64,000 nt of DNA, taken from the NCBI RefSeq assembly GCF_017811175.1, contig NZ_JACWIJ010000002.1, forward strand, positions 3,213,501-3,277,500, given 5' to 3'. The stretch comes from Melaminivora jejuensis. GTDB lineage: Bacteria; Pseudomonadota; Gammaproteobacteria; Burkholderiales; Burkholderiaceae_C. How positions within the stretch are numbered: the stretch's first letter is position 1; each line of letters begins with the position of its first letter. Position numbers and translations under genes: made by a program. The notes beneath the pieces are model-generated. The model worked only from the letters and a program-made list of their open reading frames with translations. It did no database searches and had not been told where the DNA came from. Below, one piece after another: positions 19,229-21,848 of this stretch.

Positions 19229-19294
19229 GGTGTCCTCCTCGGAACATTGTTTGAAAAACCCCCGCTGGACGGCCCGGCGGGTTGCAGGAGGTAG

Positions 19295-19310
19295 CGCAGC
19301 ATCCGTGCCA
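19295..19310 (-). promoter_or_regulatory. Sigma-54 promoter of the first pilin gene
   Basis: On the minus strand TGGCACGGATGCTGCG has GG and GC at the exact -24/-12 spacing of the RpoN consensus. PilR-type control is inferred from the gene class. Confidence 0.8.
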
Positions 19311-19377
19311 GCAAACAATTCGCTACACCAAGAACGCAATCCTTACTTTCATAGGGCTTTGCTGGTACTGGATCAAC

Positions 19378-19435
19378 TATGTTTTTGATAGCTTCCAGCG
19401 CTTGCCAGTATTGGCTTTGACCCTGTTTTGACCAT
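19378..19435 (+). repeat. Dispersed comamonad repeat, intergenic copy
   Basis: Contains TTTTTGATAGCTTCCAGCGC then TTGCCAGTATTGGCTTTGAC. It lies between the pilin promoter and the remnant of the DUF1778 gene. The rest of 19311-19560 shows nothing recognisable. Confidence 0.75.
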
Positions 19436-19559
19436 GAATTCCGGCAGTCTGGCACTGGGCTGCTGCCGCGCCCAGCCTGCGGCTGACGATCATGCTTGTC
19501 AGTCAACGCCTGCCATTTTTGTAAGGCAAAAACGTAGGTTGGCCGGCAGTTGGTGCTGT

Positions 19560-19738
19560 TTTGCGGCAGCCTCAGCGGCTTGGGTGGGGGCTGGCTGGCA
19601 CGTTTGGGCGCGAGGTCAGATTGCGGCCGATCCAGCATTTCCAACAGCGCTTGATATTGGCTGCCGGACACCATGAACAGCCGCTGGTCGAGCAAGGTCT
19701 GCTCGGCAGCACGGTACGCCGCGTCCAGGATGAAATCG
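19560..19738 (-). pseudogene. DUF1778 (TacA-like) antitoxin, C-terminal fragment
   Basis: Reads DFILDAAYRAAEQTLLDQRL followed by SGSQYQALLEMLDRP, the second half of a DUF1778 antitoxin. It is cut at base 19738 by the tnpB element; the N-terminal half continues at 21119. The frame runs on without an early stop into unrelated sequence, so the true 3' end is unclear. No GNAT toxin gene, the usual partner, is visible nearby. Confidence 0.8.
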
Positions 19739-19880
19739 TTGACATCCTCCCCGGCCTGAAGGCCGGAGATTCCTACGGCGCTCCAACCAGCACGTGGCTG
19801 GATGGAGTCGCTTCGGCGGGTTCCTGCTTCGCCGAGGCTGCACGCTTGGCCCTTGCGGGCCTTGCACGGCTGACGTCCTC
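19739..19880 (-). ncRNA. Predicted right-end guide (omega) RNA of the tnpB element
   Basis: In characterised TnpB elements the guide RNA covers the end of tnpB and the right end, and its guide is the flanking host sequence. Here the last ~110 coding bases plus 34 bases with a CCGGCC-TGAA-GGCCGG hairpin would form the scaffold. The guide would begin CGATTTCATCC, in the interrupted DUF1778 gene. This is inference from the family; the 5' limit is arbitrary. Confidence 0.5.
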
Positions 19881-21029
19881 TCCACAGGCTGCAACGCGGT
19901 GTCCCCGCGCCAGTATGTTGATCGCGCCGATGTGATCGGCGTGGCCTTCGCGCCCGCATTCGACGCAGCGAAATACTGCTTGCGTTTTGCGGTTGTCCGC
20001 GCTCACGCAGCCGCACTCGGGGCAGGTTCTGCTGGTGTTGTGCGGCGGCACGGCAATCAGCATTTCTCCCTTCCAGGCCAGCTTGTATTCCAACTGCCGT
20101 CGGAACTCGAACCAGCCCTGGTCGAGGATGGCTTTGTTCAGGCCGCTCTTGGCCCGCACGTTGTTACCCGGCTGTTCGGCGCTGCCCTTGGCTGACTTGG
20201 ACATGTTGCGTACCTGCAAGTCCTCGATGACGACCATCGCGTGGTTTTGGCTGATGGCTGTCGTGGCTTTGTGCAGGTAGTCGCGCCGGGCGTTGCCAAT
20301 GCGGGTGTGGATACGTTGTACCTTGGCTTTCGATTTCTTCCAGTTGCTGCTGAATTTGGTCTTGCGGCTCATGGCCCGCTGGTAGCGGCGCAAGCGGGCT
20401 TCGTGCTTCTTAAAGCTCGCCAGCGGCTCCAGATAGGAGCCGTCGCTGAAGGTGGCGAAGCGGGCCACCCCTACGTCTATGCCAACGGCGCTGCTGGCCT
20501 GGGGGATGGGCGGCTCTACCTCTCGCTCGGTCTGGATGCTGACGAACCATTTGCCGCTGGACTGGCTCACGGTGATATTTTTCACCGCGCCCAGCACCTC
20601 GCGGCTTTGCCGATAGCGCAGCCAGCCCAGCTTGGGCAGGAAGATGCGGCTGCTCGCTTGGTCGAGCTTGATCTGCTTGGCGTCGGGGTAGCGAAAGCTG
20701 TCCCGCTGGCCTTTTTTCTTGAAGCGCGGGAATGCCGCCCGCTTGGCGAAGAAGTTGCTGTATGCCCGCTCCAAATCCTTGAGCGTCTGCTGCAACGGGT
20801 GAACCGGCGCATCGGCCAGCCAAGCCGTCTCCATGCTGCCCCGCCACTCGGTGAGCAGCTTGCACAGGCCGGCGTAGCCGAGCTTCTTCTGGCCACGCGC
20901 GTAGCGTTCTTTGTGCAGCGCCAGCGCCTTGTTGAACACGAAGCGGCACGAGCCAGCGAAGCGGCGCATTTGCCGCTCTTGCTGGCCGTCTGGCATCAGT
21001 TCGTATTTGAAGGCTTGCAGGCGTTGCAT
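19773..21029 (-). CDS. tnpB: TnpB RNA-guided endonuclease
   Basis: 418 residues, ancestral relative of Cas12. N-terminal helix-turn-helix/REC-like region (SCRFVFNKALALHKERY), then a RuvC nuclease with all three acidic residues: D185 in GIDVGVARFATF, E269 in VVIEDLQVRNM and D365 in HADHIGAINIL. A four-Cys zinc finger lies between the last two (CPECG ... CVECG). All features of an active nuclease are present. The last ~45 residues are basic and low-complexity and overlap the predicted guide RNA. The ATG lies about 90 bases inside the left end. Confidence 0.95.
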   Translation of the reverse strand: MQRLQAFKYELMPDGQQERQMRRFAGSCRFVFNKALALHKERYARGQKKLGYAGLCKLLTEWRGSMETAWLADAPVHPLQQTLKDLERAYSNFFAKRAAFPRFKKKGQRDSFRYPDAKQIKLDQASSRIFLPKLGWLRYRQSREVLGAVKNITVSQSSGKWFVSIQTEREVEPPIPQASSAVGIDVGVARFATFSDGSYLEPLASFKKHEARLRRYQRAMSRKTKFSSNWKKSKAKVQRIHTRIGNARRDYLHKATTAISQNHAMVVIEDLQVRNMSKSAKGSAEQPGNNVRAKSGLNKAILDQGWFEFRRQLEYKLAWKGEMLIAVPPHNTSRTCPECGCVSADNRKTQAVFRCVECGREGHADHIGAINILARGHRVAACGEDVSRARPARAKRAASAKQEPAEATPSSHVLVGAP

Positions 21030-21055
21030 GGCTGGCTAAATATACAGTTGTTTGA

Positions 21056-21072
21056 GGACGGCTACGCCGTCC
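21056..21072 (-). promoter_or_regulatory. Hairpin in the tnpB leader
   Basis: GGACGGC-TAC-GCCGTCC, a perfect seven-base stem 27 bases before the tnpB start. It may limit entry of transcription or translation into tnpB, as short leader hairpins do in other insertion sequences. Confidence 0.4.
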
Positions 21073-21118
21073 GCGCTAGCCTGCCCCGGCCTGAAGGCCG
21101 AGGCTTGTCGCGCACCGG

Positions 21119-21212
21119 GTCAACGACTTGTGTGCCACTTCGGCGGCACGACGCAGCACCGTCTCTTGCTGGGGAGTCGCACGTAGCCCAAGCCGGGCGG
21201 AGCGCGCGCTTG
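21119..21212 (-). pseudogene. DUF1778 (TacA-like) antitoxin, N-terminal fragment
   Basis: Minus strand reads ARSARLGLRATPQQETVL then RRAAEVAHKSLT, the ribbon-helix-helix start of a DUF1778 antitoxin, ending at the TTGAC target of the tnpB element. The frame has a TGA just upstream (near 21219) and no start codon where one is expected, so the gene may have been damaged at its 5' end as well. Confidence 0.8.
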
Positions 21213-21239
21213 ATGCTCAGGCAGAACTGGATGGCCGCA

Positions 21240-21848
21240 TCACACCTGCCGAAACTCCATCTCTGCCCCGGCCAGCGCGATGCGGTCGCCGTTTTGCAGC
21301 GCCACCGCGCCCGGCCCCAGGGCGCCGCCGTTGAGCAGTGGCCGCTCCTCGCCCTCGACATGCGTCAGCACGAAGCCATGCGGGCGGCGGGTGATGGAGG
21401 CCACCGCCACGCCGGGCTTGCCCAGGGTGGTGACGACCTTGGTCAGTGCGACTTCGCGCCCCGTGGCCGGGCCGCTGATGACGCGCACCAGCGCGGCGTG
21501 TACCGGCGGCGCGCTGGGCGCGGGGGGCGGCATGGCCTGCGCCAGGTCGGGCCAGGCTTCGTCGGTCAGAAAGCGCAGGCGGTATTTGCCCGCCTCCACC
21601 GTGTCGCCATGCTGCAGCGCCTGGCGCTGCACGCTCTGGCCGTTGACGGTGGTGCCGTTGGTGCTGTCCAGATCCTGGATCTGGACGCTGCCGTCGTGCG
21701 CCATCAGCAGCACGGCGTGTTCGCCGCTGACGGCCAGGTGGTCGAGCACGATGTCGTTGTAGGGGCGCCGGCCGATGGTGGTGCGCTCCTGGGTGAGGGT
21801 GACTTCCTTGACGAGGGCGCCATCGATCGTTACGGCCATTCGGGGCAT
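21240..21848 (-). CDS. FHA domain protein
   Basis: 202 residues. A first forkhead-associated domain (about 5-95) has the phosphothreonine-binding elements: TTIGRRPYNDIVL, SGEHAVLL and DLDSTNGTTVNG. A second, more diverged FHA-like domain follows a Pro-rich linker (TKVVTTLGKPG and PLLNGGALGPG). Such proteins read Ser/Thr phosphorylation. It follows a PP2C phosphatase gene by 95 bases on the same strand; no Ser/Thr kinase gene is in view. Confidence 0.9.
   Translation of the reverse strand: MPRMAVTIDGALVKEVTLTQERTTIGRRPYNDIVLDHLAVSGEHAVLLMAHDGSVQIQDLDSTNGTTVNGQSVQRQALQHGDTVEAGKYRLRFLTDEAWPDLAQAMPPPAPSAPPVHAALVRVISGPATGREVALTKVVTTLGKPGVAVASITRRPHGFVLTHVEGEERPLLNGGALGPGAVALQNGDRIALAGAEMEFRQV

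Follow-up and report, generated by a model that had tools for sequence, protein, structure and literature searches.

A tnpB-only element within an antitoxin fragment of Melaminivora jejuensis and the different predicted guide of its counterpart in a sister species

The 64,000-nucleotide stretch of Melaminivora jejuensis DNA analysed here (the window) carries a 1380-bp tnpB-only element of the IS200/IS605 type on the minus strand at 19739..21118, and the sister species Melaminivora alkalimesophila has the same insertion with a different predicted guide. The preferred account, at a probability of roughly 0.7, is that an element once occupied a second motif, CTGAC, at a distance of 124 bases and that the arrangement was resolved differently in the two lineages, leaving the two copies of a presumably RNA-guided nuclease with differing guides. 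Its family membership is that of an ordinary TnpB transposon, presumably RNA-guided; what merits pursuit is that the predicted guides of the two species differ. TnpB would bind an omega-RNA made from the 3′ end of tnpB and the right end of the element, the right flank would supply a guide of about 16 nt, and TGAC-flanked copies of that flank would be cut, an empty allele then being repaired from the occupied one. A TnpB is generally expected to acquire a new guide upon transposition. Here the same insertion may have had its guide rewritten between two species, a local rearrangement between neighbouring motifs, perhaps through a transposase acting on nothing but the right end, reprogramming the TnpB with the left end unmoved, a tentative reading that falls somewhat short of an even bet.

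Both ends of the element can be placed exactly. The M. jejuensis genome holds 16 matches to the window TnpB, comprising near-full copies, fragments and more distant TnpBs; five are near-full (L001-L005, L001 being the window copy), L005 has an internal TAG, and several copies are truncated or carry a stop. Right ends were located by the pattern GA(G/T)GATGTCAA, terminal GTCAA included, and the eight copies found in this way diverge from the next base onward, which in the window is 19738, the start of the right flank CGATTTCATCC (minus strand). Six copies have in common the left start C(C/T)GGTGCGCG; in the fragments L007 and L009 the left ends have diverged. The empty sites come from family homologues of the interrupted antitoxin at 72-86% DNA identity, found in 6 of 249 other family genomes and uninterrupted in all of them. 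Each runs from (H/Q)KSLT into DF(I/V)LD without an insert, so the original prediction was right about the ends, about the 1380-bp length and about a split between HKSLT and DFILDAA, while the last five nucleotides of its range 19739..21123 belong to the target motif. No target duplication is seen against these homologues, and the insertion lies 3′ of a fixed short motif, as in the IS200/IS605 family. Within the genus no empty site was found for this locus: G002 and G004 have no antitoxin match, and the window right flank has long matches only in M. jejuensis itself (G000) and, without 124 bp discussed below, in M. alkalimesophila (G001). A contig search of genomes returned 506 relatives, and together with the family scores these place the likeness of element and TnpB beyond chance. 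L016 (G000:C2:2091956-2092042), a remnant lying some 1.2 kb away from L002, stands after CTGAC and has the first bases of a left end fused to the 3′ part of tnpB, and a dispersed repeat at about 19370-19450 (CCAATACTGGCAAGCGCTGGAAGCTATCAAAA) has about 40 further matches in M. jejuensis and 18 in G004.

The interrupted sequence is what remains of a DUF1778/TacA antitoxin, read on the minus strand. Its left part (21119..21208) has lost the N-terminus, and its right part comprises 124 bp (19615..19738; PF08681, E 8e-9; 85% identical to the homologue L134). Antitoxin sequence is indeed split by the element, as had been predicted, but the gene is now a fragment: an in-frame TGA at 21217-21219 is followed by no start codon, and homology to L134 and L135 stops at 19615, short of the C-terminus. 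The fragment resembles known TacA/DUF1778-GNAT pairs in being TacA sequence. In L134 an intact TacA antitoxin is followed by a GNAT gene, and the window differs in having neither the start nor the C-terminus of the antitoxin and no toxin in the adjoining gene, the next one downstream, which reads as a type IV pilin. A functional pair, with an intact antitoxin and an adjacent GNAT toxin, is thus not what the window holds.

The corresponding locus of M. alkalimesophila CY1 (L020; L100 and L187 of the same genome lie on the same contig) shares the left junction with the window. The left flank is identical at 126 of 126 positions, 21030-21113 at 84 of 84 and the right end at 34 of 34, and tnpB is 96.6% identical. 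At its right end, L020 is joined directly to the base that corresponds to 19614 in the window, and the 124 bp from 19615 to 19738 are absent. In the window the antitoxin homology stops at the very base where this L020 junction falls, exactly after a second motif, CTGAC, at 19615..19619 (minus strand), so that two landmarks, homology end and sister junction, mark 19615/19614 as a probable excision scar. TGAC has a density of 3.0 per kb in the window and is found at three places within the 738 nt right of the element, from which a single breakpoint placed at random is estimated to fall exactly on such a motif in about 0.3% of cases. Between the predicted guide of L020 and the window scar, 18 of 20 positions agree; the nuclease of M. 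alkalimesophila would thus be directed against the very site vacated in the M. jejuensis lineage. The homologues L136-L139 count against a former occupant, since their BLAST homology stops ten bases earlier than 19615.

Two breakpoints at one motif are best explained by an element that once stood at CTGAC with CTCGCG to its right (right flank CTCGCGCCC), although the occupant itself is deduced from the junctions only. In the M. jejuensis lineage the CTGAC site would have been vacated, leaving CTGAC|CTCGCG, with the element now 124 nt upstream at TTGAC and guided by antitoxin sequence; in M. alkalimesophila the sequence separating the motifs (124 bp) would have been lost, and the element there would have a CTCGCG guide. 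A tandem pair in the ancestor, TTGAC-E-124 bp-CTGAC-E-CTCGCG, is favoured as the likeliest starting point, the second copy being precisely excised in the window lineage and the two copies recombining in the sister; as a close alternative, one element may have moved by 124 nt. Such a move would rewrite the target of the nuclease and free the old scar from cutting. That CTGAC is followed by CTCGCG instead of the antitoxin C-terminus would require a further, unobserved deletion. Within tnpB, copies can be seen to have recombined: where the sequences differ between 20563 and 20616 (22 sites), the window agrees with L002-L004, and L020 agrees with L005 at 21. L020 comes from a draft assembly of 840 contigs, in which the assembler could have collapsed tandem copies; in that case the sister would hold the proposed ancestor rather than a deletion.

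The same junctions can be read with the window state as ancestral. A single insertion at TTGAC would have been followed, in the sister, by one-sided joining of the right end past CTGAC by TnpA, with loss of the 124 bp and a swap of guide. The L020 junction links the right-end cleavage site exactly to the base that follows TGAC, both being cuts that TnpA chemistry would make, and the overlap at the junction is only 1 nt (C), which argues against an ordinary repeat-mediated deletion. This history leaves unexplained why the window antitoxin homology should stop at the same base, and a comparison of flanks (75 left, 78 right, at E 1e-8) shows L001/L020 as the only pair with one flank shared and the other not; it is accordingly judged unlikely. 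A limited literature search gave no match by title or abstract for deletions next to the right end, which is no claim of absence from print. Coincidence would demand that the antitoxin end and the toxin were lost in an unrelated deletion and that a second, unrelated deletion of 124 bp in the sister took the same breakpoint. The locus is degenerate in both lineages and deletions are common in pseudogenes, yet two breakpoints at one base directly after a motif present three times per kb make this very improbable. The preferred reading remains a former occupant at CTGAC.

The nuclease itself is an intact TnpB of 418 aa (19773..21029, minus strand), the sole gene inside the element and without an internal stop. 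It scores 360 bits against the cut-off of 100 for guided_TnpB (NCBIfam NF040570), 305 against 425 for the IS200_TnpB exception model (NF038281) and 180 against 350 for the IS607_TnpB model, and because it falls below the IS200_TnpB cut-off it is filed under the broader guided_TnpB model. Cas12f was considered as an identity and rejected, the Cas12f2 model giving 67 bits, below the CRISPR effector cut-off of 450. Pfam finds the OrfB_IS605, Cas12f1-like_TNB and HTH_OrfB_IS605 domains in the window TnpB. The RuvC triad D185, E269 and D365 is present at the positions that had been predicted, as is the zinc ribbon with its CxxC pairs CPEC (336) and CVEC (355), and these catalytic and zinc residues align with those of the solved ISDra2 TnpB of Deinococcus radiodurans. 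The homology to that protein extends over the whole length (194 bits), and this comparison settles the TnpB identity; the top PDB match is an AI-designed nuclease, 9yyg, at 218 bits. With the family score, the RuvC triad and zinc ribbon, and a predicted structured right-end RNA at the boundary, the locus has the sequence features by which OMEGA systems are recognised, and motif-dependent guided cleavage of DNA would be expected of it. A Y1 HUH transposase, TnpA, is not found inside the element, which is why it is filed as a non-autonomous, tnpB-only derivative of the IS200/IS605 type rather than as an autonomous member, and in this it is unlike ISDra2. Among the best 80 of the 506 relatives, IS605-type elements share the left end, right end and TnpB at 69-97% best-segment identity. 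One of them, the autonomous L028 of Marinobacter lutaoensis, has beside tnpB, on the opposite strand, a Y1_Tnp transposase (155 bits) that the window element lacks; other relatives have about 500 bp between the left end and tnpB.

The right end is predicted to encode the scaffold of an omega-RNA (reRNA) at 19739..19868, minus strand, overlapping the 3′ end of tnpB and containing the right-end hairpin (19747-19768). GAAT at 19769-19772, before the hairpin, and the cleavage site TCAA at 19739-19742 have the arrangement described for IS608 of Helicobacter pylori (PMC5934647). The fold was derived from 44 right ends: those of 42 relatives out of 68 distinct ones, that of the window and that of L003, which is one base short; several of the 26 relatives left out have a visibly different right-end sequence. 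RNAalifold predicts 22 pairs, of which 13 show two-sided changes, and 97.2% of the cells are paired, compared with 38-46% in slid controls, while none of 500 shuffles reaches any of five measures; since the alignment that yielded the structure also served to test it, and kinship among sequences can itself lift them above shuffles, this covariation is support and not proof. A search of Rfam at the gathering threshold returned only a tRNA. In ISDra2 the reRNA is described as about 150 nt long with the last 16 nt or so taken from the flank (PMC8612924), and by analogy the guide in the window would be the 16 nt of antitoxin sequence at 19738-19723, CGATTTCATCCTGGAC (minus strand), in the place where the original prediction had put it.

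That this guide would match the empty antitoxin site stands only in part: CTGAC lies beside the site in L134, L136, L138 and L139, but there are 3 mismatches in 16, and in L135 and L137 the script extracted no clean guide site. Across five genus genomes, targets with up to 3 mismatches comprise only the element's own flank and scattered sites with 2-3 mismatches. The guide falls within a conserved stretch of the antitoxin family, which could suggest that TnpB was co-opted, either for RNA-guided regulation or to ward off TacA-type antitoxin genes arriving from outside. Nuclease-dead TnpB regulators do not have intact RuvC residues, whereas those of the window TnpB are intact; moreover, the nearest antitoxin sites carry the 3 of 16 mismatches, no exact 19-nt target occurs in the viral contigs searched, and plasmid matches, scored without regard to the motif, are weak. 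A domesticated regulator or an anti-plasmid role is judged highly improbable and finds no support in these searches.

On the left, the element adjoins TTGAC (21119..21123, minus strand), the motif that had been predicted as target-adjacent. A survey of 86 loci (the best 80 of the 506 relatives and six own-genome copies) gave 11 without a usable left-end match and 6 with an unresolved motif, and the remaining 69 sites, in which L001 and L020 are both counted as one insertion seen twice, divide into TTGAC (24), CTGAC (18), TTGAT (15), ATGAC (7), CTGAT (2), TTAAC (2) and CTAAC (1). The predicted motif is therefore one form of a core, TGAC or TGAT (66 of 69; TAAC in 3), whose fifth base is free. 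The six readable own-genome junctions are CTGAC in L003-L006, CTAAC in L002 and TTGAC in the window. The five-nucleotide target of ISDra2 likewise ends in TGAY, being given as TTGAT in PMC8612924, against TTGAC and CTGAC in the M. jejuensis elements, and its predicted guide too comes from the right flank.

Target choice may follow the rule described for IS608, where TTAC is recognised through the left guide AAAG, positions −3 and −4 forming A-T pairs (PMC5934647); a G-C pair at −1 is our own reading of the two tetranucleotides. In the window the left guide tetranucleotide would be CAAG (21104..21107), next to a left-end hairpin identified by eye, CCTCGGCC-TTCA-GGCCGGGG (21084..21103, both minus strand), a 17-nt piece of whose region is found again at the right end. 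CAAG is predicted to pair with the target TGAC as AAAG does with TTAC, the base changes between the two pairs matching. Seven of 75 loci had an unreadable left end; of the 68 remaining elements 65 obey the rule (49 TGAC/CAAG, 15 TGAT/CAAA and 1 TTAC/AAAG), the exceptions being three TAAC elements. The search patterns admitted only T at −4, only A at −2 and only AA in the middle of the guide, which leaves −3 and −1 as the positions put to the test. Fifteen elements match the T/A change at −1; one (TAAC/CAAA) does not, and L051 (TGAT with CAAC), from the unreadable loci, also appears unmatched; at −3 one of four variants is matched, TTAC/AAAG, and the three TAAC elements are not. The counts are of relatives, which are not independent, and draw their support mainly from −1; even so, the agreement of guide and target supports IS200/IS605-type target choice. 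The TTAC/AAAG element is L088 of Nitrincola sp. A-D6, in effect an IS608 pair within the TGAC/CAAG family.

Whether the element can still move bears on its present role. The Y1 model has three matches in M. jejuensis, read as pieces of one gene and separated by about 1.3 kb that hold a 371-aa DDE transposase (DDE_Tnp_1, DUF772), and it finds no intact TnpA in the genome. A distantly related tnpB adjoins this split tnpA locus (L186, G000:C2:579700-583600). TnpB retention is reportedly the subject of a study by Meers and others (2023). In the retention model, presented in PMC8612924 and PMC11870625, TnpB cuts excised sites. The original prediction had the nuclease favour its own retention by cutting unoccupied alleles, which is plausible as history, but as the only Y1 transposase found lies in pieces, such cutting after a fresh excision probably no longer takes place here, and the model would fit the past of the window copy better than its present. 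Outside one tract of tnpB, the block at about 19267-21269 shares about 98-100% identity with its counterpart in M. alkalimesophila, compared with 71-73% for the neighbouring FHA gene and 71-75% for the FHA and PP2C genes together. This locus beside the pilin gene was thus probably exchanged recently between the species, and for this reason the shared insertion is no evidence of long retention.

It is a serious possibility, though the odds run against it, that the element is a dead remnant with a TnpB that is unexpressed or inactive, kept by drift and gene exchange, a state that fits any of the histories above. The fragmented Y1 gene, the truncated or stop-bearing copies elsewhere in the genome and the recent exchange of the block all fit such decay, as does a dN/dS of 0.52 between the window and L020; that value and the 1.19 between L002 and L003 both stem from few changes. 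The open reading frame, the catalytic residues and the right-end RNA fold are nonetheless intact, and dN/dS is 0.14-0.25 between more diverged copies.

The target motif can also double as a stop codon. Its TGA or TAA closes a same-strand open frame of at least 139 codons in five of the six own-genome copies (L002-L006), the window copy with 39 codons being the exception, although the closed frames need not all be genes and that of L003 looks doubtful. Of the 66 sites for which 1000 nt or more of upstream sequence is available, 21 close at least 100 open codons, compared with 11.6% of 761 control motif sites taken from the upstream flanks (binomial p about 1e-5, with related sites and a rough control). 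The genes at L002, L004 and L006 have 11 homologues in the genus, of which, by our reading, 10 end at the same codon and L181 runs four codons further, and the right flank is also found nearby in 8 of the 11. Since a gene stays whole when an element lands directly behind its stop codon, the excess may reflect survival bias. None of the literature matches listed describes, by title or abstract, a target motif that doubles as a stop codon, and absence from print is not claimed.

Downstream of the probable scar, a comparison with 250 family genomes recovered the whole M. jejuensis locus and, in seven other genomes, matches that are short and weak, with G001 absent from the output. For the wider family, relatives at TGAC, at TGAT and, in one case, at TTAC would mean that target choice by TnpA and the target-adjacent motif preference of TnpB have changed together, if both are active. 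For the two Melaminivora species, a shared left end with different guides would offer a natural and testable case of TnpB reprogramming. The pair would also bear on how the scar of an earlier excision may survive once the nuclease targets elsewhere.
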